NCBI RefSeq assembly: GCF_014191775.1
Contig: NZ_JACHXA010000001.1
Coordinates: 124,001-188,000, forward strand
Direction: 5' to 3'
DNA from: Limibacillus halophilus
GTDB taxonomy: Bacteria > Pseudomonadota > Alphaproteobacteria > Kiloniellales > CECT-8803
DNA: 64,000 bases
The notes under the pieces were generated by a model that was given only the letters and a program-made list of their open reading frames with translations, had not been told where the DNA came from and did no database searches. Position numbers and translations under genes: made by a program. Of the stretch, positions 49,948 to 64,000 are shown piece after piece (position 1 is the first letter of the stretch; each line of letters starts with the position of its first letter).

Positions 49948-51021
49948 ATGGCGCAGCCACTTTCATTCAAGGGATTGAAACGCCCGTTGCTCGATGATCT
50001 CAACGAGCGATCACGCGAGATATTCCGTCATATCGTCGAGGCTTACGTGGAAACCGGCGCGCCGATCGGTTCACGCACCTTGTCCCGACGCCTGGGACTG
50101 GACCTGTCGCCAGCCACCATCCGCAACGTAATGGCCGACCTGGAAGAGTTAGGCTTGCTGTTTGCACCTCACACGTCGGCCGGGCGCCTGCCGACCGACC
50201 TTGGCCTGAGTATGTTCGTCCACGGGCTGCTTGAGCACGGCAATATTGGGATCGAAGAACGCCAGCGAATAGAGGCCCAATGCCACGCGCAAGGGCGCAG
50301 CTACAGCGAGGCGCTGGAGGAGGCGGGCGCCACCCTATCGCAGCTATCACGCTGTGCCGGTCTCGTGGTCGCACCGAAAGTCGATGAGGCGCTTAAACAT
50401 ATCGAATTCGTGTCCTTGGGACCGGGGCGAGCCTTGGTGGTCATGGTCACTAATTCCGGCAAGGTCGAGAATCGTGTGATCGACGTGCCGATAGGTCTGC
50501 CGCCGTCGTCGCTGGTCCAGGCCTCAAACTTCCTGACTGCGCGACTTGTCGGTCGCACGCTCGGCGAAGCGCAGAAAACCGTGAAGCAGGAACTGGAAGA
50601 GCAACAGGCACAACTGGACGAAATCACAACGCGCTTGGTTGAAGCGGGATTGGCCACCTGGAGCCCTAACGCGCGTGGTGGCGCCCTGATCGTCCGCGGG
50701 CAGGCACAGCTTCTCGACGAGATCACCGCGATCGAAGATCTGGAGCGGGTTCGACAGCTTTTTGCTGCTCTCGAGGCCCGTGAAACTCTGCTCAAGCTGC
50801 TCGATCTCACGGAGATGGCCGAAGGCGTACAGATCTTTATCGGTGCGGAGAACGAACTCTTCGGCGTGGCCGGTTGCTCGATGGTTGTGGCCCCCTATCA
50901 GAACAGTCAGCAACAGATCGTCGGCGCAATCGGTGTGATAGGTCCATCGCGGATGGACTATGGGCGCATCATCCCTTTGGTGGACTACACTGCAAAGGTG
51001 ATCGGTCGTTTGATCGGTTGA
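49948..51021 (+). CDS. hrcA: heat-inducible transcription repressor HrcA
   Basis: 357 residues. The winged-helix N-terminus has LNERSREIFRHIVEAYVETG, PIGSRTLSRRLGLDLSPATI and RNVMADLEELGLL. The middle GAF-like part has HTSAGRLPTDLGLSMFV, and the C-terminus has FIGAENELFGVAGCSMVVAPY and IGVIGPSRMDYGRIIPLVDY. It represses groESL and related operons at CIRCE elements, which are not seen in this window. It is followed by grpE on the same strand. Confidence 0.97.
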   Translation: MAQPLSFKGLKRPLLDDLNERSREIFRHIVEAYVETGAPIGSRTLSRRLGLDLSPATIRNVMADLEELGLLFAPHTSAGRLPTDLGLSMFVHGLLEHGNIGIEERQRIEAQCHAQGRSYSEALEEAGATLSQLSRCAGLVVAPKVDEALKHIEFVSLGPGRALVVMVTNSGKVENRVIDVPIGLPPSSLVQASNFLTARLVGRTLGEAQKTVKQELEEQQAQLDEITTRLVEAGLATWSPNARGGALIVRGQAQLLDEITAIEDLERVRQLFAALEARETLLKLLDLTEMAEGVQIFIGAENELFGVAGCSMVVAPYQNSQQQIVGAIGVIGPSRMDYGRIIPLVDYTAKVIGRLIG

Positions 51022-51093
51022 ATTCCGCCCCACGCCTCCCCATAAAGTGCGCTTGATCCCTTGAATCGAAATACAGAAGGAAGCATCCCAGTG

Positions 51094-51750
51094 ATGAACA
51101 CCGAGGAGCGCAAAAAAGCCAAGAAGGCTGAGGACTCAATCGACGAACCGCAGATAGCGGTTGAGGACGTCGAGAGGGCTGAAACACCCGAGGAAGCCAA
51201 TCCCGCTGAAGCTGATGCAGCCGAGCCCGCTGCAACAGACGCCGCCGAGCAGGCTGAAGCTGACGCTGCCGAGCCCGCCGTTGATGCGGCCGCAGCGCTC
51301 GAAGCCGAGGTCGCACAGTTGAAGGACCAGCTACTCCGTGCGGTGGCTGAGACCGAGAACCTGCGCCGCCGCGCTCAGCGCGAGAAGGAAGATGCCGTGC
51401 GTTATGCCCCTGCACCTCTGGCCAAGGCGCTATTGCCGGTGGCGGACAATCTGCGGCGCGCGCTGGAGGCCATTCCCGATGACTTACGCAGCGACGCCCG
51501 CGCCGAAGGTTTGATTTCGGGATTGGATCTGACCGCAAAGGAGCTAATGCAGGCCTTTGGGAAAAACGGCATAGAAGCTATTGAGCCGATGGGACAGAAG
51601 CTTGATCCTCATTGGCACGAAGCTCTCTTCGAGGTTCCTGATCCAACGCAAGAGGTCGGGACCGTGGTTCAGGTCGTAGAAGTCGGTTATCGGCTGGGTG
51701 ACCGTCTGCTGCGGCCCGCGCGTGTTGGTGTGGCCCGAAAGCCCGATTGA
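51094..51750 (+). CDS. grpE: nucleotide exchange factor GrpE
   Basis: 218 residues. An acidic, Ala/Glu-rich disordered start with repeated AEADAAEPA is followed by the long dimerisation helix (ALEAEVAQLKDQLLRAVAET, NLRRRAQREKEDAVRYA) and the beta domain GQKLDPHWHEALFEVPDP with GYRLGDRLLRPARVGVA. It releases ADP from DnaK. The start may be ATG 51094 or GTG 51091; AAGGA lies somewhat far upstream. It lies 72 bases after hrcA. Confidence 0.95.
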   Translation: MNTEERKKAKKAEDSIDEPQIAVEDVERAETPEEANPAEADAAEPAATDAAEQAEADAAEPAVDAAAALEAEVAQLKDQLLRAVAETENLRRRAQREKEDAVRYAPAPLAKALLPVADNLRRALEAIPDDLRSDARAEGLISGLDLTAKELMQAFGKNGIEAIEPMGQKLDPHWHEALFEVPDPTQEVGTVVQVVEVGYRLGDRLLRPARVGVARKPD

Positions 51751-51771: not shown

Positions 51772-52272
51772 CTACAGACGGGGACGGCGCCGCATGTGAT
51801 AACGACCAGGGCGAACGGATTCCGGCAAAGCGAGGTCAATAGCGCCTGCTATTGGAATGTTCTGGTCTGATACCAAAATTCCACCGGGGGCCAGCAACCG
51901 TCCAAGGTAAGGGGCCAAGCCGGCCGCGAGCTTGGCGTTGGCGGCCTCATCACCGCTACCGATATCCGCGTGAATAAGCGCGGCCATGCCGTCGAATCTG
52001 GCCAACGCCAGAGGTAGCGTCTCGAACACATCGCCCAAGAAAAGATGCTCTTGATCGGGTATGCAATCCGGGTGCGCCGCAACCTTGCGCTCGAACACAA
52101 AAATCTCCCGTTCCGGCAAAGCCTCACGAATATGGTCGTAGGTCCGGCCATTCCCCAAGCCGAGTTCCATGACCGGCCCGGCCACGGACTCGGCCTCTAT
52201 CAGAGTGACGGCTGCGTCAAGACAGGACCGCTGGGCCTCAAGCCGACGAATCGCACTATCAAGCCGGCTCAC
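51772..52272 (-). CDS. small class I SAM-dependent methyltransferase
   Basis: 166 residues. The SAM-binding glycine loop is VMELGLGNGRTYDHIRE, followed by an acidic residue at the end of strand 2 (FVFERKVAAHP) and LIHADIGSGDEAAN at the motif II region. Motif III is LAPGGILVSDQ. The fold is minimal with no substrate domain, so the target is unknown. Its ATG overlaps the stop of the cyclic-nucleotide-binding gene by four bases (translational coupling), forming one unit with that gene and the ABC-like protein. Confidence 0.82.
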   Translation of the reverse strand: MSRLDSAIRRLEAQRSCLDAAVTLIEAESVAGPVMELGLGNGRTYDHIREALPEREIFVFERKVAAHPDCIPDQEHLFLGDVFETLPLALARFDGMAALIHADIGSGDEAANAKLAAGLAPYLGRLLAPGGILVSDQNIPIAGAIDLALPESVRPGRYHMRRRPRL

Positions 52273-52721
52273 TGCTTGGCGCCCTGGACATCGCGCATGG
52301 CCTTAATCATTCCTTCCATGCGGTGAGCCAGAACACGCATCACCTCCAGCGCCATATCCGGGAATTCGTGAGCCATGCGTAAGAACAACTCCTTGGTCAG
52401 CTTCAAGGCAACGGCACCTTTCGCACCGGCCTCGACATTGGCGGTCCGCGGCACGTCGCAAAGGATGGCGATCTCACCGACGATGTCGTTGACGCCAAGT
52501 CTGGCTATGACCCGTTTCTCGCCGCCGTTGAAGAAAACCTCGGCATCACCTTCGAGAATAATGTAGGCGGAATCACCGACATCACCTTGCTTGCAAAGCA
52601 TTTGGCCGGGCTTAAAGGTCAATCGCTCGCTCGCGAAAGCCATCAACTTCAACCGGGCGGGATCAATGTTTGCAAAGAAGGGAACCTTGCGAAGGGCCTC
52701 CACTTCCTGATCCAGGCTCAT
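52269..52721 (-). CDS. stand-alone cyclic nucleotide-binding domain protein
   Basis: 150 residues from ATG 52721 behind AAGGAG at seven bases. It is a single CRP-type cNMP domain: FKPGQMLCKQGDVGDSAYII, LEGDAEVFF and the phosphate cassette VGEIAILCDVPRTANVEA with its conserved Arg. The C-terminal helices (MALEVMRVLAHRMEGMIKAM) replace the DNA-binding winged helix of CRP. It therefore probably acts as a ligand sensor through protein contacts. It lies between the methyltransferase and the ABC-like gene in one operon. Confidence 0.87.
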   Translation of the reverse strand: MSLDQEVEALRKVPFFANIDPARLKLMAFASERLTFKPGQMLCKQGDVGDSAYIILEGDAEVFFNGGEKRVIARLGVNDIVGEIAILCDVPRTANVEAGAKGAVALKLTKELFLRMAHEFPDMALEVMRVLAHRMEGMIKAMRDVQGAKQ

Positions 52722-52746: not shown

Positions 52747-55542
52747 TTATGCTGCGCCCGATGTTTCAAGGAGCAGGCGCAATTTTTGTCCGTCCTTGTT
52801 CAAGTCTGCGAACGACCCCTGTTCAACCAATCGTCCCTCTTCCAGAACCAGGATTTTATCAAAGGCATCAGCAAAATCCGGTCGATAGAGGCTCCAGAAA
52901 ACACCCTGGCCCTTCCGGGTTTCCAAGACGCGTTCAAGAATTCGGCGTTGCGAGGCGCTGTCCAGGGCTGCCAGGGCCTCGTTGAGAACCAGCAAGTCCG
53001 GGCGCTTGACAAGTGAACGCGCCAAGGCGGCCTTCTGTTTTTGCCCATTGTTCAGGCGCTTGCCCGCGACGCCGACGTCATAGGTCATTCCCAGTTCGAT
53101 GACGCGCTCGCGCAAACCCTGATCATCAAGGACCTTGATGATCGCATCCTGAACAGTCTCTTCGCCTTGCGCCTGTCCGAAGGCCAGGCGTCCAAACAGG
53201 ACATTGTCCTGCAACGTCGCCGCCGGGTTATAGGTGCCGGGCTCATAGAATGCGACGCCCAGGCCGTTGTCCTTCGCAAGCAAATCGGCAAACCGCTTGC
53301 GCGTGCGCACGATTCGTTCCGCCCGCTCCGGCGATATCAACCCCAGGCGATGCCGCGCCTCTACGTAATCGAGAGCAATGCGCATCAATCGCCCACGATC
53401 CTCAGGGGTAAGGCCTCCCATGCCGCCTTTCTCCTGGCGCCCGACCAAGCTGCGGAACTCCGGCAACTCCTCGGCATCAATGAAACTGAACTGTTCGAAG
53501 AACGGGTGGCCCGGCGGCAAATCGGCGAAGATTTCCACCATAGTCCGGGCAATCTCCAACCCAACCGCCTCTAGATCACCCTCCAAGGCCTCGGCCTCGA
53601 CCGCTTCTTTCATGCTCGCTTGGGCGAGCAGTTGATCCGGTTCAAAGCGCGCATCGAGCGGCGAGCCGAACAACAGGTTTTCGGCTAGCGACGCGTTCGG
53701 ATTGAAGGAACCGGGGTCGAAACGCACAATCAAATCATCATGCCCATCCGCGTGGAGACTCTCGGCCAGCGCCTGCCGTGCGGAGAGGATTTGATCGGCA
53801 AGGTCGGTGTGCTCCTCGGGGTTAAACCTGGCCAACAAACCGAAACGGTACAGGTCTTCTTCCAATTCCACCGTCTGGATCGCCTCAAGCAACCGCTGAT
53901 CGAGCTCTTGTGCGTCGCGCGCGCCCGCCGCCTCGTAGTCCACCCAGTCGGCCTCAAAGTCAAAATAAGGATTACCCGCGCGTTGGGCTTCAAGGCGATC
54001 TGCCTCTGCGGCTCGCTGAGCCGCCGGTTCACGCTCAGGCGGGCGCAAGGGCTTGTGCAGCAGGCCGTACAGCAGATTTCTGCGCAGCGAGCCTGCAAAG
54101 AAATGCGCGTCGGCGGCCACGTAGCCCAAACGTCTCCCGGTTACCGCCTGCGGTAACGCACCAAGTTCGTGGCCGCCAATCGAGGCATGGCCCGTACTGA
54201 TCGGCTCCAAACCTGCCACAACAAGCGGCAGATATTCCTTCCCGCCGCCACCCGGACCGACGACTGCCACGTGCTCGGTAAGGGCAGCGGTAAAGGAAAT
54301 CGCATCGAGCAGCCTGCGATCGCTGTCGTCGACCACCGCCACCCCACGCAGCTCGATCTGGCCCTCCAGTTTCGCCGGCCCCTCGGCGTCGGGGTCCTGG
54401 CGCTGCGGGTCGATCAACACCGGCGGTGCAAACTGCTCGATCACCTGCTCGTACTTGATCTGGACATCCTGGCGGCGCTGGTCCCAGTCAATTAGTTCCT
54501 TGATCGGCGAAGGCAAATCTTTGTAGGCGGCGATTACCGCCACCAGCGCGCCGATGTCGAGCTCACCGGCTATCGCTAGTACGCCGCCCACAACATAGAA
54601 AATAAAAGGTGTGACCTGAGCCAGGAAGTTGTTGAGAAATTTGACAAAAAACTTCCGGCGATAAATCTCGTATCGGATATCGTATATGCGCGCCAGACGG
54701 CTAACCAGTTCGGCCCGCTCGTAGTTCGAGGTATCATGAGCATGCACCTCGGTAGCACCGGCAATGGTCTCGCCCAGACGCCCCGCTAGCTCTCGGGCTG
54801 TCAGTTGACGCTGACGACCGAGCCTGAGGATCGGAATACGCAACTTCGGAATCAGCGCCGCCTGGAAAATTACAACGGCAGCCGCAACACTGCCCAGAAT
54901 CCAGCTTTGGGCCAAAATGAAGGCCATCGCTGTCAAGGCCTGTCCGCCCAGGAACACCGGGTTCACGAAGGCTTCGCCAATGAAGCCGCCGAGCGGCTCA
55001 ACCTCGTCCTTGATCATGGTGGCGACTTCGGCCTGCTTGACCTTGCGCATGTAGGGCAAAGGGAAGCGCAACAAGCGGTCGCTTAACTGGTAACGCAGAC
55101 GGCGCAGCATACGCTCGCCCATCTGCCCCTTCCGGGTATTGATGACATACTTGAAGTAGCCGTTGACGATCACAAGGCCCAGAAAAACAAACGAAAGCAC
55201 AAGCAGCGCGTCCATCTGCCCCAGTTCCAGCCCGTCGAACATCGTGACGGTCTGGCCGAAAATCTCCTGGCTGTATGGAATGTGAATACTGAAATAGGGC
55301 TGCGTATCATCCGGGCCGGTGAAGCCTTGACCCTCGATGCCCTGGTTCACGATCTGCTTGGGAAGATCAAGCGAGACGTAATAGAAGGGCATCGACAACA
55401 GCACGAGGCAAAGCACCCTAATCTGATAGTGCTTGCTGTGCCGCCAGATATAGCGAAACAGGTTTTGATCCATCGGCTGTGCCACATCCCCCAGGAAGGC
55501 TTTCCAGTGCTGCAGAGTAACCATCGCCGCGACTGCCGTCAT
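52747..55542 (-). CDS. ABC-exporter-like protein with degenerate nucleotide-binding domain and long insertion
   Basis: About 931 residues. An exporter-type membrane domain (residues about 20-390) includes RYIWRHSKHYQIRVLCLVLL and further helices. The nucleotide-binding part departs from consensus everywhere. Walker A is GPGGGGKEYLP near 428 (Glu for Ser/Thr), the Q-loop is VAADAHFF (Gln lost), the signature is LNNGQKQK near 830, Walker B is LLVLNEALAALD (Asn for Asp), and the switch His is Tyr in FWSLYRPDF. About 300 residues are inserted between Q-loop and signature. The segment NxxLxxNxLFG recurs three times. ATG 55542, 55521 and 55473 are all possible starts. It may bind nucleotide without hydrolysis. 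Confidence 0.82.
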   Translation of the reverse strand: MTAVAAMVTLQHWKAFLGDVAQPMDQNLFRYIWRHSKHYQIRVLCLVLLSMPFYYVSLDLPKQIVNQGIEGQGFTGPDDTQPYFSIHIPYSQEIFGQTVTMFDGLELGQMDALLVLSFVFLGLVIVNGYFKYVINTRKGQMGERMLRRLRYQLSDRLLRFPLPYMRKVKQAEVATMIKDEVEPLGGFIGEAFVNPVFLGGQALTAMAFILAQSWILGSVAAAVVIFQAALIPKLRIPILRLGRQRQLTARELAGRLGETIAGATEVHAHDTSNYERAELVSRLARIYDIRYEIYRRKFFVKFLNNFLAQVTPFIFYVVGGVLAIAGELDIGALVAVIAAYKDLPSPIKELIDWDQRRQDVQIKYEQVIEQFAPPVLIDPQRQDPDAEGPAKLEGQIELRGVAVVDDSDRRLLDAISFTAALTEHVAVVGPGGGGKEYLPLVVAGLEPISTGHASIGGHELGALPQAVTGRRLGYVAADAHFFAGSLRRNLLYGLLHKPLRPPEREPAAQRAAEADRLEAQRAGNPYFDFEADWVDYEAAGARDAQELDQRLLEAIQTVELEEDLYRFGLLARFNPEEHTDLADQILSARQALAESLHADGHDDLIVRFDPGSFNPNASLAENLLFGSPLDARFEPDQLLAQASMKEAVEAEALEGDLEAVGLEIARTMVEIFADLPPGHPFFEQFSFIDAEELPEFRSLVGRQEKGGMGGLTPEDRGRLMRIALDYVEARHRLGLISPERAERIVRTRKRFADLLAKDNGLGVAFYEPGTYNPAATLQDNVLFGRLAFGQAQGEETVQDAIIKVLDDQGLRERVIELGMTYDVGVAGKRLNNGQKQKAALARSLVKRPDLLVLNEALAALDSASQRRILERVLETRKGQGVFWSLYRPDFADAFDKILVLEEGRLVEQGSFADLNKDGQKLRLLLETSGAA

Positions 55543-55755
55543 CAATCACGTCGCACAAAGGCTGCATGCCTGTATATTTTTCTGTAGTGACCAAGTGTTT
55601 AATTCAACATGGTTGCTTTGGCTACTGGTCACCGTGTTGGTTATTCAAGCCTTTCCGTTGATTGATTGCTGTGGCACAGTTCCCCCTGTTCTTGCAGGAA
55701 GAGGCCGCTCGACCGCAGGGTAGAGACGGGAGCCGGCCAGGGGAGTCTCTAAAGG

Positions 55756-56982
55756 ATGGCCGGTGCACGACAGCGGGACACCCGCGTTCTGATCTATAGC
55801 CATGACAGTTTTGGCCTGGGTCACTTACGTCGATGCCGAGAGATTGCGCACCATTTGGTGCAGGGGGAGAGCGACCTTTCGGTTCTTATAATCTCCGGCT
55901 CGCCTATTATAGGGTCCTTCGATTTTCGGAGCCGCGTCGATTTCATCCGCATTCCAGGTGTGATCAAGCTGCGCAATGGTGAGTACACGTCACTCAACCT
56001 GCCGATCGCCGTGGAGCAGACGGTAGCGCTCCGCGCCTCGATCATTGAACACACCGCGGAGATTTTTGAACCTGACATCTTTCTGGTCGACAAGGAGCCG
56101 CTTGGGCTGCGTGGCGAGGTGGAAGGTACCTTGCGTTATCTGAGCGAGAAGGGCGTACCTTGCATTCTGGGCCTGCGCGATGTCATGGATGGCCCTGAAC
56201 TGCTTGCGGCGGAATGGCTGCGGAAGCAAGCCGTCCCCGCTCTCGAATCTTACTACGATCAAATTTGGGTCTACGGCCTGCCGCAGATCTGCAACCCGCT
56301 GGAAGGGATTGATCTACCGGATTCCGTGGTCAAGAGAATCACTTTTACCGGATATCTCCGCCGGACCTTGCCCCAGGTCGCCAGCAGTGCATTGCCCGAG
56401 GCGATACCCTCTCCATACATTCTGGTGACGGTCGGTGGCGGCGGTGATGGCGAAGCGATCATCGACTGGGTGCTGCGCGCCTACGAGCAGGATGCAACGA
56501 TCCCCTACCCCTCGCTGCTGGTGCTGGGGCCCTTCATGGGCGGCGAACACCAGAATGAGTTTCAGCAGCGCGCGGGGCGTTTGGACAAGGTCGAAGTGAT
56601 CACCTTCGATGCGCACATGGAAAGTCTGATGGCCGAAGCTGCCGGCGTGATTTGCATGGGCGGCTACAATACCTTTTGCGAACTACTTTCCTTTGATAAA
56701 CGCGCCGTCATCGTACCACGCACAGAACCACGGCTTGAGCAGTACATCCGCGCCAAGCGAGCGCAGGATTTGGGTTTGTCACGCATGCTGCTCGACGACG
56801 GCGCGCGCGATGCCGCAGATATGGCGACGGCCATTCGAAACTTGCCCCAGCAGCCGCTTCCGTCGGAGAGCGTCATCCCCGGCCTGCTCGATGGGCCGGA
56901 GAACGTCACGAAGCTGGCCCGGCAGTGGTTTGCCAGAACCGGCCGCCCGCAGCTTTCCCTCGCCGCCCAGCAACAACAGTGA
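55756..56982 (+). CDS. glycosyltransferase of the MurG-like (COG4671) group
   Basis: 408 residues from ATG 55756. The start TRVLIYSHDSFGLGHLRRC is the N-terminal pattern of this GT-B group, with SGSPIIGSFDF and IFLVDKEPLGLRGEVEGTL. The C-terminal sugar-nucleotide half has ILVTVGGGGDGEAII, VITFDAHMESLMAEAAGVIC and MGGYNTFCELLSFDKRAVIV. Sugar and acceptor are unknown. It opens the glycan cluster, is separated by 80 bases from the next transferase, and resembles the protein at 60087-61262. Confidence 0.85.
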   Translation: MAGARQRDTRVLIYSHDSFGLGHLRRCREIAHHLVQGESDLSVLIISGSPIIGSFDFRSRVDFIRIPGVIKLRNGEYTSLNLPIAVEQTVALRASIIEHTAEIFEPDIFLVDKEPLGLRGEVEGTLRYLSEKGVPCILGLRDVMDGPELLAAEWLRKQAVPALESYYDQIWVYGLPQICNPLEGIDLPDSVVKRITFTGYLRRTLPQVASSALPEAIPSPYILVTVGGGGDGEAIIDWVLRAYEQDATIPYPSLLVLGPFMGGEHQNEFQQRAGRLDKVEVITFDAHMESLMAEAAGVICMGGYNTFCELLSFDKRAVIVPRTEPRLEQYIRAKRAQDLGLSRMLLDDGARDAADMATAIRNLPQQPLPSESVIPGLLDGPENVTKLARQWFARTGRPQLSLAAQQQQ

Positions 56983-57062: not shown

Positions 57063-58331
57063 ATGAAGGAACCCCTCATAAGTGACGCCGGAATCGAACA
57101 TCTGGCCATTGTCCTGAAAGGCTACCCGCGCCTCTCGGAGACTTTTATTGCCCAGGAACTGCTGGCACTGCAGCAGCGTGGCATGAACATCACCTTGCAA
57201 TCCCTCAGGCATCCCACGGATCGGGAAATTCACCCGATCCACCGCGAGATTACGGCACCGGTCAATTACCTGCCTGAGTATCTGCACGATCAGCCAGCCC
57301 GAGTTATCAAGGCTTGGTGGCGGGCCCGACAGCTACCGGGGTACAAAGCGGCCTTCGCTGCATTCCTGCGGGACTTGCGGCGGGATCTAACCCGCAATCG
57401 AATTAGGCGCTTTGGCCAGGCTTGCGTCCTGGCGGCGGAGATGGCACCGGAAACCACCCGCATTTACGCCCATTTCCTTCACACCCCGGCATCCGTTGCC
57501 CGCTATGCCGCCCTGATCCGCACACTGCCGTGGAGTTGCTCCGCGCACGCCAAAGACATCTGGACGACGCCGGACTGGGAAAAGCGCGAGAAACTGGCGG
57601 ACCTCGACTGGTTGGTCACCTGTACCGGCAGCGGACGCGATCACCTGAAATCCCTGGCCGGGGACCCTTCCCGCGTACATCTGGTTTACCATGGGTTGGA
57701 CTTTCGGCGTTTTCCCGCACCGCCTGACCGGCAGATTTCCGGCGATGGGCGCAGCGCCTCCGCCGCGGTGGAAATTTTGTCTGTCGGCAGACTCGTCGAG
57801 AAGAAAGGGTATGATCTTCTGATCGCCGCGCTTGCCGCACTCCCACCGGATCTCCATTGGCGGTTCACGCATATCGGCGGCGGCGATTTAATGAATACCT
57901 TGGCAGGAAAAGCGCGGGATTTGGGTCTGGCGAACCGCATCGATTGGCGCGGTGCGGAGCCTCAAGAACGGGTACTGAAGGCATTGAAGGAGTCCGATAT
58001 CTTCGTATTGCCCAGCCGCATTACCAAGAACGGTGATCGAGACGGTTTGCCAAACGTACTGATGGAGGCCCAAAGTCAGAGGCTGGCTTGCATTTCAACC
58101 GAAATTTCGGCCATACCGGAGCTCATTCTACCGGGGGTAACCGGCTTGTTGGTGCCCCCTGATGACGTCCCGGCCCTGACAGAGGCACTGGAAAGGCTGA
58201 TCCGTGATCCGCAGCAGCGGCTGCGGCTTGGCAAAGCTGGCGAAGCGCGACTGCGGGCAGAGTTTGGATTGGAGCAGAATATCGGAACGCTCTTGGGCCT
58301 GTTGGGTGTGAAGGCGAGGGAGGCGGCGTAA
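57063..58331 (+). CDS. GT4-family glycosyltransferase
   Basis: 422 residues. The N-terminus has LKGYPRLSETFIAQELLALQ, common in exopolysaccharide transferases. The GT4 donor domain has ILSVGRLVEKKGYDLLIAAL and the E-x7-E region SRITKNGDRDGLPNVLMEAQ. Then PELILPGVTGLLVPPDDVPA closes the pattern. It should add a nucleotide-activated hexose with retention. Its stop TAA overlaps the next ATG by one base (TAATG), indicating tight coupling. Confidence 0.88.
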   Translation: MKEPLISDAGIEHLAIVLKGYPRLSETFIAQELLALQQRGMNITLQSLRHPTDREIHPIHREITAPVNYLPEYLHDQPARVIKAWWRARQLPGYKAAFAAFLRDLRRDLTRNRIRRFGQACVLAAEMAPETTRIYAHFLHTPASVARYAALIRTLPWSCSAHAKDIWTTPDWEKREKLADLDWLVTCTGSGRDHLKSLAGDPSRVHLVYHGLDFRRFPAPPDRQISGDGRSASAAVEILSVGRLVEKKGYDLLIAALAALPPDLHWRFTHIGGGDLMNTLAGKARDLGLANRIDWRGAEPQERVLKALKESDIFVLPSRITKNGDRDGLPNVLMEAQSQRLACISTEISAIPELILPGVTGLLVPPDDVPALTEALERLIRDPQQRLRLGKAGEARLRAEFGLEQNIGTLLGLLGVKAREAA

Positions 58332-59470
58332 TGAAGGTCGCCTTCTACGCACCGATGAAGCCACCTGACCACCCAGTGCCTTCCGGCGACCGCCATATGG
58401 CTCGCCTATTGATTTCCGCGCTGGAAAGAAGCGGTCACGACGTAACCCTGGCAAGCCGTCTGGTTAGTCGCGACGGTCGAGGAGACGCCCTTCGGCAAGC
58501 GCGCCTGCAGCGACTGGGAAGCGAACTGGCAGAGCGCCTTTTGCGGCGCTATGCCCGGGCGCCGCGAGACCAGCTGCCCGAACTCTGGCTGACCTATCAT
58601 CTCTACTATAAGGCGCCCGACCACCTTGGCCCCAAAGTATCCAAGGCTTTGGGTATTCCTTATGTGGTGGCCGAGGCCTCAGTGGCCCCAAAGCGCGCTG
58701 GCGGTCCTTGGGACCTGGGGCACAGAGCTGTATTGAGCGCTCTAGGCGCAGCGAAGGGCGCAATCACGCTCAACCCGGCGGATGCTGGCTGTCTCGACCC
58801 TGCTTTGCCGCAATTGATGCTGCCGCCGTTCCTAGATCCGCAGCCCTACGAGGCCGCTCGCGGCATGCGATCGGCCCATCGCAAGACCGTGGCCGATCGG
58901 TTCGGCATGGACACCGAAAAAACCTGGCTGCTTACCGTCGCCATGATGCGGCCGGGCGACAAACTGGCGAGCTATCGCCTGCTCGCAGAGGCCTTGAAAA
59001 CATTGGCCACGACAGATTGGGAAATATTGGTGGTCGGCGACGGTACCGCATCAGGCGAAGTGCGTGAGGCTTTCCAGGGGTTTGCGAACGATCAAATGCC
59101 CTTGCGCTGGGCCGGAGCGCTGCCGGGCGAAATGCTGCCGACAATCTATGCCGCAGCCGACCTCTTTGTCTGGCCCGCCATTCGCGAGGCGTATGGTATG
59201 GCCTTGCTCGAAGCCCAAGCTGGCGGGCTTGCTGTGGTGGCCGGGCGCGAAGGAGGTGTCCCAGCCGTGGTCGACGACCAAGCAAGTGGCCTCCTGACCC
59301 CGCCGGGCGACTGTCGTGCCTTTGCCGCGGCGGTGTCGCGACTTATTGCGGATCCCGATCTGCGTGGGGAGATGGGCCGAAAGGCCGCCGAGCGGGTTTC
59401 TCGAACCCAGAATCTGGATATCTCGGCACGTAAGATCACCACCTTTCTGGAGCGATGCAGAACGCCATGA
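58331..59470 (+). CDS. GT4-family glycosyltransferase
   Basis: 379 residues of GT-B fold. It opens MKVAFYAPMKPPDHPVPSGD and RHMARLLISALERSGHDV. The donor domain shows WLLTVAMMRPGDKLASYRLL, ILVVGDGTASGEVREAF, LRWAGALPGEMLPTIYAAAD, and FVWPAIREAYGMALLEAQAG with the E-x7-E motif. It is coupled to both neighbours: TAATG at its start and ATGA at its end. The sugar cannot be predicted. Confidence 0.88.
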   Translation: MKVAFYAPMKPPDHPVPSGDRHMARLLISALERSGHDVTLASRLVSRDGRGDALRQARLQRLGSELAERLLRRYARAPRDQLPELWLTYHLYYKAPDHLGPKVSKALGIPYVVAEASVAPKRAGGPWDLGHRAVLSALGAAKGAITLNPADAGCLDPALPQLMLPPFLDPQPYEAARGMRSAHRKTVADRFGMDTEKTWLLTVAMMRPGDKLASYRLLAEALKTLATTDWEILVVGDGTASGEVREAFQGFANDQMPLRWAGALPGEMLPTIYAAADLFVWPAIREAYGMALLEAQAGGLAVVAGREGGVPAVVDDQASGLLTPPGDCRAFAAAVSRLIADPDLRGEMGRKAAERVSRTQNLDISARKITTFLERCRTP

Positions 59471-60090
59471 CCGAAACGGGATCATATGCGACGCCCTTCG
59501 TGTTGCTGCGCCACGGTCCCACGGAGTGGAACCGGGATCGCCGCTTACAAGGACGAAGCGATATCCCTCTGTCGCGCAAGGGCCGCGCCGAGGTTGCAAG
59601 CTGGCACTTGCCGCCGGACCTACAAGACTACAATTGGTTGGTCAGCCCCCTGGAACGCGCGCGAGAAACGGCCAGGATACTCGGGTTGGAGCAGGCCCGG
59701 ATCGAACCGCGGCTGATCGAGATGAATTGGGGCGAGTGGGAAGGGCAGCGCATCGCCGACCTCAGGCTCGCCTTGGGAACGGCTATGACCCGGAACGAAG
59801 CGAAGGGTCTGGATTTTCAACCCCCCGACGGCGAGAGCCCGCGTGATCTGCAAGAGCGCTTGAAACCGCTGTTAGAAGAGATCGGCCAAGAGCGCAGGCC
59901 CACGGCGGCGGTCTGCCATCGCGGCGTGATCCGTGCCCTTTACGCCTTAGCGAGCGGATGGGACATGACCGGCAAACCGCCGGATCGGCTGAAAGAAGCC
60001 TGCTTGCATCGCTTTGCCATTTCCAACGAAGGCATCCCAGCGGTCGTCCGCATGAATGAGAGTCTGCGCGGCGGGGAGGTCAGGATATGA
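59467..60090 (+). CDS. histidine phosphatase family protein (phosphoglycerate mutase-like)
   Basis: 207 residues from ATG 59467, which overlaps the previous stop (ATGA). The catalytic motif is VLLRHGPTEWNRDRRLQGRS with RHG. The second His is in AAVCHRGVIRALYALASGWD. Acidic GEWEGQ (here NWGEWEGQRIADL) is also typical. In this position it may remove phosphate from a sugar-phosphate intermediate. A glycan cluster role is inferred from coupling to transferases on both sides. Confidence 0.88.
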   Translation: MTETGSYATPFVLLRHGPTEWNRDRRLQGRSDIPLSRKGRAEVASWHLPPDLQDYNWLVSPLERARETARILGLEQARIEPRLIEMNWGEWEGQRIADLRLALGTAMTRNEAKGLDFQPPDGESPRDLQERLKPLLEEIGQERRPTAAVCHRGVIRALYALASGWDMTGKPPDRLKEACLHRFAISNEGIPAVVRMNESLRGGEVRI

Positions 60091-61262
60091 AGCCAAAGGT
60101 CCTTCTTTACGTACAGCACCTTTTGGGCATCGGCCACCTAAAGCGCGCCGCTCTGCTGGCCCGCGGCATGACGGATGCGGGGTTCCACGTTGTCTTCGTC
60201 TCTGGAGGCGAACCCCACAGCGGTCTGGATCTCGGAGCCGCGGAACCAATACAGCTTGCGCCCTGTCATGTGCGCGACGAGAGTTTCCAATTGCTCGACG
60301 AAACCGGTCAGCCGGTCAGCGCCGACTGGCAACAGCGGCGCCGCGATCATTTGCTTTCGATTCTGCAAGAAGCCCGGCCCGATGCCTTGTTGGTGGAGCT
60401 TTTCCCCTTTGGGCGCCGACAGATGCGCTTTGAACTGTTGCCGCTGCTGGAAGCGGCCCGGGAACAAGACCCATCCCCCCTTGTGTTCTGTTCGGTCCGC
60501 GACATCCTCTCGAAGATACCCAGCCCTGAGCGGCAGACGTGGATTGTGGATGTCCTCGGCAAGTACTTTGACGGCGTCCTCGTGCACGGCGACCGCTCTT
60601 TCATTCCCTTCGACGCGACCTTCCCGGCAACCCACCTTCTGGAATCGAAGCTTCTCTATACCGGCTATGTGACAACAACGACGGCGGCTGGCTCGCCAAC
60701 CGGAGCCGGGCGAGGCGAGGTGTTGGTTTCGACCGGCGGCGGCGCGGTCGCCGGGCCGCTGCTAGAAGCTGCGTTGGCGGCGCGACCGCTGACTTCTATT
60801 GCCTCGGCACCATGGCGGCTGTTGGCGGGCCGCAATTTTCCGGAGGAATCATTTCAAAGACTGCGTAAGCAGGCGCTGAAAACTGCAGGCGGCGTGATCC
60901 TGGAGCGCGCCAGACCCGATTTTCAACAACTGCTGGCCAACTGTCTGCTCTCCATCAGTCAGGCCGGTTATAACACCACGCTCGAGGTTCTCGCCGCAGG
61001 GCCCCGGGCAGTGCTTGTCCCCTATGCCGCAGGGGAGGAGGGTGAACAGAGCCTGCGCGCCGCGTTATTGGCGAAGCAGGGCCTGCTCACAGTCGTCGAG
61101 GAGCGCGGCTTGAGCGGGACCACGCTGGCCGCTGGTATCGAGATGGAGCTAAGGCGCCCGCGAATCGAAACAGCATTCGATCTTGATTTGGAAGGCGCCG
61201 CCCATAGCGCCAGCCTAATCCGGCAGGCTTTGGACGCAAAAAGGCAGCAACCCGACCGATGA
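60087..61262 (+). CDS. glycosyltransferase of the MurG-like (COG4671) group
   Basis: 391 residues, same group as the protein at 55756-56982. It opens KVLLYVQHLLGIGHLKRAAL with FVSGGEPHSGLDLG and has LVELFPFGRRQMRFELLPLL. The C-terminal half has EVLVSTGGGAVAGPLLEAAL, CLLSISQAGYNTTLEVLAAG and RAVLVPYAAGEEGEQSLRA. The start overlaps the phosphatase stop (ATGA), and its own stop overlaps the deacetylase-family start (ATGA). Sugar and acceptor are unknown. Confidence 0.85.
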   Translation: MKPKVLLYVQHLLGIGHLKRAALLARGMTDAGFHVVFVSGGEPHSGLDLGAAEPIQLAPCHVRDESFQLLDETGQPVSADWQQRRRDHLLSILQEARPDALLVELFPFGRRQMRFELLPLLEAAREQDPSPLVFCSVRDILSKIPSPERQTWIVDVLGKYFDGVLVHGDRSFIPFDATFPATHLLESKLLYTGYVTTTTAAGSPTGAGRGEVLVSTGGGAVAGPLLEAALAARPLTSIASAPWRLLAGRNFPEESFQRLRKQALKTAGGVILERARPDFQQLLANCLLSISQAGYNTTLEVLAAGPRAVLVPYAAGEEGEQSLRAALLAKQGLLTVVEERGLSGTTLAAGIEMELRRPRIETAFDLDLEGAAHSASLIRQALDAKRQQPDR

Positions 61263-62038
61263 CAACTTGGCGTAATTTGGACGAGGAACTGGCAGCCTGG
61301 CAGGAAGCGGGCCGAAAGCCGGTATTCTGGTGGCGCGACGACGATGCTGCGCGGGCAAGCGATGGTCTCTCACTTTTGTTGGAACTGCGCGCGGCATCGG
61401 ATCTGCCGCTTTCCTTGGCTGTGGTACCCGGCCTGGTGGAAGACAGCCTGGAAAAGGCCCTAGGCGATCGCCAAGGCCTTTCACTGTTGCAGCATGGGTA
61501 TCGGCATGAAAACCACGCAACGCCCGGGATGAAGAAGATCGAATTGGGCGGCACCCGTTCCACGGAAGAAATCCTAGCGGCTCTGGAGGCCGGCAAGAGT
61601 ATTGGAGAGGCCGTGTTCGGACGAGGTTGGCTTCCCGTCCTAGTGCCCCCGTGGAACCGAATCGAAGATCGGATCGTTCCGCATTTAGCGGCTTTGGGAT
61701 TTCAGGGGCTTTCGATCCACGGGCGCAGACGCGACGCCTTCATGGGGCTGACCGTGGTCAACAGTCATCTGGACATCCTGCAATGGAAACCGGCCGCCCA
61801 CTTTCTTGGGGAGGCGGCCTTGCTCACCCAACTTACGACCGCCCTGAGGACACGACGCCTGGAAGATACACCGGGCTCTGAAGAACCTTGCGGCATCTTG
61901 ACGCATCATCAAGCGCATGATCCCGAGAGTTGGCGGTTCCTAAAGTCTCTCTTTTCGCACCTGGAACAGCACGAGGTTGTTTCCTGGAAGGGGGCAATAC
62001 CGCTATTCTGCGAAACCAAAAGGGGAGACGAGCCGTAA
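61259..62038 (+). CDS. polysaccharide deacetylase (NodB-like) family protein
   Basis: 259 residues without signal peptide, so cytosolic. The first metal motif is PVFWWRDDDAARASDGL (Asp), the second LLQHGYRHENHATPG (His pair), and a third part LVPPWNRIEDRIVPHLAAL. HHQAHDPESWRFL near the C-terminus supplies the last His. It should remove acetyl groups from an N-acetylated sugar or related precursor. Start overlaps the preceding transferase (ATGA). Confidence 0.85.
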   Translation: MTTWRNLDEELAAWQEAGRKPVFWWRDDDAARASDGLSLLLELRAASDLPLSLAVVPGLVEDSLEKALGDRQGLSLLQHGYRHENHATPGMKKIELGGTRSTEEILAALEAGKSIGEAVFGRGWLPVLVPPWNRIEDRIVPHLAALGFQGLSIHGRRRDAFMGLTVVNSHLDILQWKPAAHFLGEAALLTQLTTALRTRRLEDTPGSEEPCGILTHHQAHDPESWRFLKSLFSHLEQHEVVSWKGAIPLFCETKRGDEP

Positions 62039-62567: not shown

Positions 62568-64000
62568 ATGACAGTAGCGCAGCAACAGAGCACGCTCGTC
62601 AACCCACTTCTGGAGATTAAGGATCTCCGGGTTTCCTTCCAACTTCCGGAGGGCGTGCTTGAAGCGGTCCGAGGCGCTTCCTTTTCGATTGCGCGGGGCG
62701 GCACGGTGGCGCTGGTCGGTGAGAGCGGCTCCGGCAAATCGGTCATCAGTCAGGCGATCATGGGAATTCTCCCCCGTGTCGCTCGGATCAGTGGCGGAGA
62801 GATTCTGTTCCGCGACCCCAAGAATTCCGATCAGGCAATCAATCTGGCCCAACTGAATCCCGAGAGCAGCCGTTATCGGGATCTGCGCGGCGGCCGTATG
62901 TCGATCATTTTTCAGGAACCCATGACCTCGTTATCGCCCGTACATACCGTCGGAGATCAAGTCGGCGAGGCGCTTGCGCTACACAGCCCGGTAAGCAAGG
63001 CTGAAGGGCTTCGTTTGGTCGAGGAAATGCTTCGGCTGACGGGTTTTCCAGACCCTGCCCGAGCGCTAAAGACCTATCCCTTCGAACTTTCGGGCGGACT
63101 GCGTCAACGCGCCATGATCGCCATGGCGCTGGTTTGCCGACCAGCCCTCTTGATTGCCGATGAACCAACGACGGCCTTGGATGTCACAATTCAGGCCCAA
63201 ATCTTAAAGCTTATCAAGGACCTACAGGCCGAGTTGGGCATGGCCGTCCTGATGATCACACACGATCTCGGTGTCGTCGCCAATGTGGCCGAGGACGTCG
63301 TCGTCATGTACCACGGCCAAATCATGGAAAGCGGGAACCTGGAGGAAATCTTCCATAACCCCCAGCACCCATACCTGAAAGCACTCCTGCACGCCGTCCC
63401 CCGGTTCAACATGGATGCCGGAGAGCGCCTGGAACCCTTGCGCGAGATCGGCGCCAAGGAAAAGGCCGAAGCCCTGAGCCAGAAAATGGGCCACAAGGGC
63501 GATGCCGCCTCGGGCGAGCATCTACTGTCCATGATGGATGTTTCAAAAAGCTTCCGCATTCGCAAGTCGGGTTGGATCGGTTCCAAAAGCGACAAGGTTC
63601 GTGCGCTAGACGGTATCACCCTGTCAATCAGGCACGGCGAATGCCTGGGGCTGGTCGGTGAAAGCGGCTGTGGCAAATCTACCCTGTCTAAAGTCATCAT
63701 GCGGGCGGTGACGCCGGATAGCGGCCAAATCAATTACCATGCCAAAGGCGGCAACATCGACATTCTTGGGCTCAAAGGGGTCGAACTCAACGCCTTCCGG
63801 CGACGTGTACAGTATGTGTTCCAAGATCCCTTTTCGTCCTTGAATCCGCGTATGCGCGTTGGCGAGATTCTTTGCGAGCCCCTGGACATTCACCGTATCG
63901 GCAAGCCGGAAGAGCGGAACGCCAGGGTCGAAGAACTGCTGGAGCTCGTAGGGTTGGGGCGGCGACACCTACAGCGTTATCCCCATAGTTTTTCCGGCGG
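62568..64000 (+). CDS. peptide-type ABC transporter ATPase with two nucleotide-binding domains (5' part)
   Basis: 477 codons to the window edge, starting at ATG 62568 behind TTAGGA. The first domain has LVGESGSGKSVISQAI, QEPMTSLSPVHTVG, LSGGLRQRAMIAMALV and LIADEPTTALDVTIQAQIL. The second has LVGESGCGKSTLSKVI, FQDPFSSLNPRMRVGEIL and, just before the edge, HSFSGG. The double-domain, YejF/GsiA-like form energises uptake of oligopeptides or similar solutes. Unlike the protein at 52.7-55.5 kb, all motifs are intact. Partner permeases must lie beyond the right edge. Confidence 0.95.
   Translation, partial: MTVAQQQSTLVNPLLEIKDLRVSFQLPEGVLEAVRGASFSIARGGTVALVGESGSGKSVISQAIMGILPRVARISGGEILFRDPKNSDQAINLAQLNPESSRYRDLRGGRMSIIFQEPMTSLSPVHTVGDQVGEALALHSPVSKAEGLRLVEEMLRLTGFPDPARALKTYPFELSGGLRQRAMIAMALVCRPALLIADEPTTALDVTIQAQILKLIKDLQAELGMAVLMITHDLGVVANVAEDVVVMYHGQIMESGNLEEIFHNPQHPYLKALLHAVPRFNMDAGERLEPLREIGAKEKAEALSQKMGHKGDAASGEHLLSMMDVSKSFRIRKSGWIGSKSDKVRALDGITLSIRHGECLGLVGESGCGKSTLSKVIMRAVTPDSGQINYHAKGGNIDILGLKGVELNAFRRRVQYVFQDPFSSLNPRMRVGEILCEPLDIHRIGKPEERNARVEELLELVGLGRRHLQRYPHSFSG

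Follow-up and report, generated by a model that had tools for sequence, protein, structure and literature searches.

The 64,000-nucleotide stretch of Limibacillus halophilus DNA analyzed here (contig NZ_JACHXA010000001.1, positions 124,001 to 188,000; hereafter the window) contains a gene for a protein related to ATP-binding cassette (ABC) exporters. Its ATPase motifs are altered, and the alteration extends across its whole family. By descent and fold, the protein is a type IV (ABCB-like) ABC exporter. Judged by its motifs, it is not an active ABC ATPase, and it is also neither MsbA nor SbmA. It is very probable that ATP hydrolysis has been lost. The gene is followed by a gene for a small protein with a cyclic-nucleotide-binding domain (cNBD), and we tentatively favor a reading in which a non-hydrolyzing ABC-fold protein works with, and is probably gated through, this cyclic-nucleotide subunit at an envelope-glycan locus. 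The gene, here called pseudo-ABC, and its parts around the ATPase site are located as follows.

52747..55473, minus strand: pseudo-ABC exporter gene, about 908 aa; the likely ATG is at 55473 and the open frame reaches 55545
54430..55473, minus strand: transmembrane domain of the type IV exporter fold (PF00664), better conserved across the family than any other part
54235..54258, minus strand: altered Walker A, GPGGGGKE
54064..54129, minus strand: module 1, a degenerate Q-loop and the SLRRNLLYG segment
53041..53055, minus strand: altered signature, LNNGQ
52978..52995, minus strand: altered Walker B, LLVLNE, with Asn for Asp
52885..52887, minus strand: switch position, where Tyr replaces His

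The open reading frame (ORF) at 52747-55545 on the minus strand encodes 932 aa with no internal stops. The conserved part of the family alignment starts at the Met of ORF residue 25 (M4 of A1, kept in at least 90% of 60 rows), and the gene is therefore probably 52747-55473. Pfam detects ABC_membrane (PF00664; 51.5 bits against a cut-off of 28) and ABC_tran (PF00005; 43.4 bits against 25), and no third family is above the cut-off in the window protein. PF00005 is below the cut-off or without a match in six of the nine divergent members scanned. The model of the whole protein (predicted local distance difference test, pLDDT, 85.8; predicted template modeling score, pTM, 0.79) shows a type IV exporter whose nucleotide-binding domain (NBD) has a complete core. 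The ComA NBD aligns to it over all of its 239 residues (Z 27.9, 1.8 Å), and TmrAB chain 5mkk_B aligns over 483 residues (Z 28.8, 11.4 Å). The lowest model confidence is seen at residues 163-179 and 324-334, which overlap the most invariant motifs of the membrane domain (EVEPLGGFxGDAF and KELIDWDQ); we have no explanation for this. Database records label the protein "ABC transporter ATP-binding protein". The fold of the membrane domain and the NBD is shared with the type IV exporters MsbA, Sav1866, PCAT1, and TmrAB. Unlike them, the window protein has no consensus ATPase site, and it has extra helical modules and a cNBD partner.

The ATPase site of ABC proteins is described by five elements with an expected consensus: Walker A, the Q-loop, the signature, Walker B, and the switch His. 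In the window protein, the Q-loop region reads LGYVAADAHFF, without Gln, and the switch region reads WSLYRP. For the family, 119 non-redundant homologues (<95% identity in the NBD) were retained from an alignment of 129 rows. Walker A is GK[ST] in 5 of the 119; its Lys is kept in 68, and the position after Lys is occupied by an acidic residue in 95. The Q-loop Gln is present in 39/119. The signature SGGQ is seen in none of the 119. At Walker B, Asp is present in 20, Asn in 92, Glu in 57, and the pair DE in 4. Any His at residues 885-889, around the switch position, is found in 16. L144-L149, which diverge most (28.9-33.4% identity), have also lost the Walker A Lys and the outline of the signature. 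Five exporter-type proteins and one tandem ATPase of the same genome were used as a control, with motifs found by regular expression. GK[ST] and LSGG[QE] were found in 6/6 of them (one as LSGGE), and D-E and the switch His in 4/6 each.

The initial annotation, made from the sequence of the window alone, had listed an altered Walker A, an absent Q-loop Gln, LNNGQ, Asn in Walker B, and a lost switch His, and all of these are present. It had proposed a dead or merely nucleotide-binding ABC protein that has taken another job. The family-wide motif loss in the 119 homologues supports this proposal. Homologues with consensus motifs were sought as a refutation: 61 homologues carry none of the five consensus elements, 52 carry one, 6 carry two, and none carries three or more.

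The same counts bear on two alternatives. The first is a working ATP-driven flippase or exporter like MsbA, which either has an odd catalytic site or pairs as a heterodimer with a consensus half encoded elsewhere. The overall exporter fold agrees with this, and a flippase for lipid-linked glycans would suit the neighboring glycosyltransferase genes. There is precedent for heterodimeric exporters in which one of the sites is poor (TM287/288, TmrAB). A degenerate ATP site is indeed shared with BmrCD, PatAB, and TM287/288, but in those exporters the second site, in the partner, has the consensus, and no such partner is seen beside the window gene. No exporter half recurs beside the gene in 80 homologous loci; unlinked partners were not searched. 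Each of four features (the Walker B Asp, the Walker A Ser/Thr, the signature, and the switch His) is missing from the majority of the 119 homologues, and they never occur together. The MsbA model TIGR02203 scores 166.4 bits, and its curated equivalog cut-off of 602 is not reached. A working exporter is very unlikely.

The second alternative is an ATP-binding but non-hydrolyzing sensor resembling SUR, in which ATP or some other nucleotide still binds to the pseudo-NBD, with the cNBD as an extra input. The Walker A Lys and the Walker B Glu are retained in many members, so that these may still bind a nucleotide. SUR2B is the first row of the VIA-align comparison with the whole model (Z 29.9, 2.8 Å, 436 residues), although just 1.1 above the next exporter row. 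SUR1 and SUR2 provide the precedent of an ABC exporter fold that serves regulation, in their case of a channel; the window protein differs in its more eroded motifs, its half-size architecture, and the cNBD as a ligand module. Against the sensor stands the acidic residue at the Ser/Thr position, which should repel Mg-phosphate, together with the absence of SGGQ throughout the family and the loss of Lys in several lineages. We consider this sensor unlikely.

In addition to the point changes, the NBD contains a long insertion. Matches to canonical exporters mostly end around residues 494-513 and in most cases start again between residues 767 and 822, and the extra segment spans approximately residues 495 to 775 of the window protein.

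53221..54060, minus strand: insertion of extra helical modules between the Q-loop and the signature, about 280-300 aa
53665..53730, minus strand: module 2 segment, IVRFDPGSFNPNASLAENLLFG
53191..53256, minus strand: module 3 segment, VAFYEPGTYNPAATLQDNVLFG

Three copies of the segment [ST]-L-xxN-[LV]-L-[FY]-G are present (residues 473-494, 606-627, and 764-785), the first of which is the segment normally found after the Q-loop. N623, N781, and G785 are invariant in the 119 homologues and G627 is present in 113 of them, and the triple occurrence is therefore not due to chance. The block 53107-53985 (293 aa) is 291-294 aa long in 60/60 aligned homologues. When family sub-alignments were compared with hhalign, modules 2 and 3 matched over 81 columns (probability 98.5, E 1.9e-15), whereas module 1 matched module 3 (70 columns, probability 23, E 9e-4) and module 2 (22 columns, probability 21, E 1e-3) only weakly; all E-values are those of single comparisons. 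By this comparison, modules 2 and 3 are homologous.

The insert modeled alone has a pLDDT of 90.4 and a pTM of 0.84. Its two best VIA-align rows are residues 476-547 of ABCB1 (Z 5.6, 2.6 Å, 70 residues) and residues 737-807 of IrtA (Z 5.3, 2.8 Å, 71 residues), both of them the segment from the Q-loop to the signature. The third row has a Z of only 3.7. The top two are below Z 8 and weak by themselves, but they count because both fall on the segment that the sequence repeats had predicted. Foldseek gave no match at E 0.001 or below for the insert alone, a profile comparison with solved structures produced five rows with a best E of 0.2, and no Pfam family is above the cut-off inside the insert. 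An unrelated foreign domain was considered as a source of the insert and rejected; the module repeats and the two top VIA-align rows favor an origin in the ABC helical subdomain. The modules probably derive from the NBD's own helical subdomain between the Q-loop and the signature through tandem triplication. Here, the initial annotation had noticed an insertion of about 300 residues and a segment repeated three times, and both were recovered, the latter as a feature conserved in homologues. Its suggestion of a duplicated half-domain is supported by the match of modules 2 and 3; the link to module 1 is weak.

The family is under strong constraint. Full or near-full-length copies were found in 47 of 58 related genomes, own genome included, with 50-62% identity outside it; ten have no copy, and G023 has only pieces at contig ends. 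A scan of contigs detected at least 556 relatives, of which 80 loci (L040-L119) were kept for the analysis of layout. The titles of these records name Alphaproteobacteria, Betaproteobacteria, or only Proteobacteria. When 398 genomes drawn evenly from the phylum were searched with a profile of the insert, 31 matched at E 1e-10, and all of these belong to the class of the window. The profile also matched 263 of 72,556 plasmid records, mostly from Rhizobium (144) and Sinorhizobium (80). On these sequence data, the family is widespread and belongs to Alphaproteobacteria and some Betaproteobacteria.

The median ratio of nonsynonymous to synonymous substitution rates (dN/dS) is 0.085 for the transmembrane domain, 0.18 for the N-terminal half of the NBD, and 0.12 for the insert (17 pairs each), and 0.12 for the C-terminal half of the NBD (16 pairs). 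It lies between 0.03 and 0.46 for all pairs and regions where it is defined. Mean column conservation is 0.72 in the membrane domain versus 0.56-0.65 elsewhere. One or two stops are present in the matched stretch of 3 of the 47 near-full-length copies. These stops probably lie before the true start, because each of these copies still has an open frame of 907-953 aa and a match that starts ahead of residue 25. A decaying gene, which the initial annotation had already discounted from the intact and long frame, is rejected based on the purifying dN/dS throughout and the constant length of the insert. The Sinorhizobium meliloti pSymB homologue (L163 and L164 for strains 2011 and 1021) has a broken frame in the 1021 record and an intact one in 2011 and R28.

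The cNBD protein is the second component. Neither this partner, nor the fusions, nor the nearby cyclase described below was part of the initial annotation.

52269..52721, minus strand: stand-alone cNBD protein of 150 aa (PF00027, E 2e-17), the proposed regulatory subunit

PF00027 scores 63.4 bits in the window protein against a cut-off of 27.5, and there is no other Pfam domain. In 78 of the 80 loci, the gene directly downstream of pseudo-ABC, on the same strand, encodes a cNBD. The median distance between the match ends is 41.5 bases, and all 78 are within 400. The cNBD is also found fused to the C-terminus of pseudo-ABC. Nine divergent members from two genome families were examined for fusion. 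PF00027 is present in 6/6 of L144-L149 (E 8.7e-11 to 6.4e-17), and tblastn and the C-terminal sequences themselves showed the fusion in 3/3 of L138-L140. In the tree, the fused rows and the unfused L128 lie in an open fork with a long-branch warning, which is compatible with one fusion or two. The adjacency and the fusions together support the idea that the cNBD and pseudo-ABC proteins are one unit, and it is likely that the cNBD protein is a true partner. The phosphate-binding cassette keeps Gly in 104/104, Glu in 96/104, and Arg in 102/104 of the cNBD rows, followed by Thr in 92/104. Because its Gly, Glu, and Arg are conserved, binding of a cyclic nucleotide is plausible.

Bacteriocin-type ABC systems likewise include a cNBD protein that accompanies an ABC exporter (TIGR03896). 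The window cNBD scores 32 bits against that model, far below its cut-off of 161, and pseudo-ABC has no peptidase domain.

The close association with the cNBD gene, together with the recurrence of a GT28-type gene in 58 of the 80 loci, would also fit a membrane scaffold or signaling receptor that transports nothing and organizes the glycosyltransferases or the importer upon binding of a cyclic nucleotide. The rebuilt NBD would offer new surfaces for such a role. The membrane domain, however, is the most constrained part of the protein, beyond the need of a plain anchor, and a scaffold without transport is improbable.

The favored explanation is the following. The NBD would no longer hydrolyze ATP and would have been rebuilt into a non-catalytic platform, probably by the tandem copies of its helical subdomain. 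Pseudo-ABC and the cNBD protein would form a physical complex as one functional unit. The class III cyclase of the neighborhood would make the cyclic nucleotide, and its binding to the cNBD would alter the pseudo-NBD, which would pass the change of state on to the membrane domain. In the simplest mechanism, the conformation of the pseudo-NBD, presumably a dimer, would be set by the cyclic nucleotide on the cNBD instead of by ATP. The unit may serve the envelope-glycan cluster with its glycosyltransferases, deacetylase-like protein, and Yej-type importer. Its most likely role would be to regulate a glycan or lipid-linked substrate, or to move it passively or secondarily. The output would be either a gated passive or proton-driven pathway, by analogy with SbmA, or a signal to the glycosyltransferases.

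These parts differ in probability. The cNBD partner, the fusions, and the nearby cyclase point towards a cyclic-nucleotide-regulated membrane protein; control by a cyclic nucleotide is a reasonable proposal, with the balance slightly against it. A glycan or lipid-linked substrate is more doubtful. The most specific version is a cyclic-nucleotide-gated ABC-fold transporter or channel, in which a subunit for cyclic nucleotides sits on a triplicated pseudo-NBD and the switch between inward and outward states is driven or permitted by the second messenger instead of ATP. We regard it as speculative. ABC exporters are generally taken as ATP machines. If the proposal is true, an ABC architecture has been rewired to another ligand: the fold is kept, the catalytic motifs are given up, and a cyclic-nucleotide domain is paired or fused. 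The unit would be a candidate cAMP or cGMP effector that acts on something other than transcription, in bacteria with many cyclases. It also raises the testable question of what an ABC membrane domain is capable of without ATP.

The membrane domain has features of its own that bear on the energy source. A Lys-Asp pair in transmembrane helix 6 (TM6) and a Glu-x-Glu-Pro motif at TM3 are kept in at least 90% of 60 rows. The motifs EVEP-GG, NN...TPF.F, and [YH]KD..P.[KR]EL are common to the long family and to three aligned paralogues that consist of the membrane domain without an NBD, and EVEP-GG, NN...TPF.F, and [YH]KD are not found in five canonical exporters of the same genome. NBD-less paralogues were observed in the genomes G007, G037, G052, and G336, and those of the first three are 39-41% identical to the membrane domain of the window protein. 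This persistence of the membrane domain without an NBD counts in favor of the explanation given above. An alternative is a secondary, proton-driven transporter like SbmA/BacA (SLiPT), in which the dead NBD and the cNBD merely regulate. SbmA is described as an NBD-less relative of ABC membrane domains that is energized by the proton gradient, without ATP hydrolysis (PMC13316013). The charged pairs in TM6 and TM3 and the existence of NBD-less paralogues are consistent with such a transporter. SbmA has no NBD, whereas the window protein keeps a rebuilt one, and PF00664 is the sole membrane-domain family above the cut-off; proton coupling here is putative. A transporter of this kind is quite unlikely.

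The NBD-less paralogues (L121:4837-6207, L122:4829-6010, L123:4589-5959, and L183:6540-7781) adjoin multicopper-oxidase-like genes in the four genomes, confirmed by Pfam only for G336 (L183). This suggests a copper-related role for the stand-alone ABC membrane domain. In a search with an NBD-less paralogue, matches at E 1e-25 were found in 95 of 289 genomes of the class. On a plasmid of Phyllobacterium zundukense (L158:13810-16812), a pseudo-ABC/cNBD pair is followed by a metal transporter, a multicopper oxidase domain protein, and mntR, which is a second hint of a link to metals. A third group of proteins (L184:4200-5186, L185:4924-5910, and L186:4246-5250) is 328-334 aa long and has PF00664 and no NBD.

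The genes around pseudo-ABC and the cNBD gene are listed below with their recurrence in the 80 loci, many of which are on short contigs with flanks of at most 6 kb.

51772..52272, minus strand: S-adenosylmethionine (SAM) methyltransferase (PF12692), a frequent next gene, 54/80 loci
55756..56982, plus strand: GT28-C-type glycosyltransferase, the divergent neighbor, with the count given above
57063..58331, plus strand: GT4 glycosyltransferase, 52/80 loci
58331..59470, plus strand: GT4 glycosyltransferase, 45/80 loci
59455..60090, plus strand: histidine phosphatase superfamily protein, 34/80 loci
60087..61262, plus strand: second GT28-C-type protein, 41/80 loci
61259..62038, plus strand: polysaccharide-deacetylase-like protein, 28/80 loci; no Pfam match, 40% and 35% identity to two proteins so annotated
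62568..63998, plus strand: Yej-type importer ATPase, start

Beyond the window (L120), two permeases are followed by a class III cyclase at G000:C1:190672-192030. The importer of this locus is 59-67% identical to the importer proteins of S. meliloti and Rhizobium johnstonii. Four plasmid records of Hyphomicrobiales have the Yej-type importer genes, three glycosyltransferases, pseudo-ABC, and the cNBD gene on one strand; in the S. meliloti record, this order is interrupted by one methyltransferase on the opposite strand. On S. meliloti R28 pSymB and R. johnstonii pRL11, the cluster is headed by an annotated cyclase. These annotated cyclases differ from the one beyond the window, with 32% and 25% identity over parts. 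The cyclase was searched in 50 of the 76 genomes known to carry family matches. Matches were found in 36/50 at E 1e-30 and in 30/50 at E <1e-100, the latter being considered close orthologues. In 25 of these 30, the close orthologue is within 20 kb of pseudo-ABC (two measured from the insert only). The genome of the window has 11 PF00211 matches.

Several observations weigh against the favored explanation. Gene neighborhood is no proof of function. No glycosyltransferases are present in the flanks of the ten loci of the betaproteobacterial type (L069, L073, L077, L082, L085, L088, L094, L097, L106, and L107). Both Yej-type permeases are found in 8 of these ten, and the permease pair in 12 of the 80 loci overall. 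No close cyclase orthologue was found in 20 of the 50 genomes searched. Five of the 30 orthologues are not within 20 kb: two are farther away on the same contig and three are on another contig. The cyclase near the window is itself divergent, with 33.7 bits against the PF00211 cut-off of 21.9 over profile positions 6-141 of 183. Given the frequent Walker A Lys and Walker B Glu, counted above, members may also still bind a nucleotide. The fused members L138-L140 carry GKS and DE, and erosion therefore differs between lineages. L067 and L105, the only two of the 80 loci that have no adjacent cNBD gene, form one clade and keep GKT and a switch His. The membrane-domain motifs are missing in the divergent long member L141 and only partly present in L151.

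The motifs of L067:480-3233 and L105:6001-8799 are among the most consensus-like of the unfused members. A rule that the presence of a cNBD goes with ATPase loss was tried and rejected. It fits these two loci and is broken by L138-L140, where a fused cNBD is combined with GKS and DE.

No experimental description of the pseudo-ABC family was found in a literature search. SMb20813 is probably the S. meliloti member, based on its approximate place on pSymB and with the tag unconfirmed. It is called an msbA homologue in the available part of one paper, which gives no function there (PMC10945364). SMb20811 is named without a function in the accessible text of another (PMC6180224). The tags smb20804 and smb20805, near the guessed place, are tied to capsule in a third (PMC5539429); they are not used as evidence here.

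On the other side of the locus, at 49948-51750 of the window, hrcA- and grpE-like genes flank it, with names assigned from the reading of ORFs. An hrcA-like match is located near pseudo-ABC in 12 of the 80 homologous loci.

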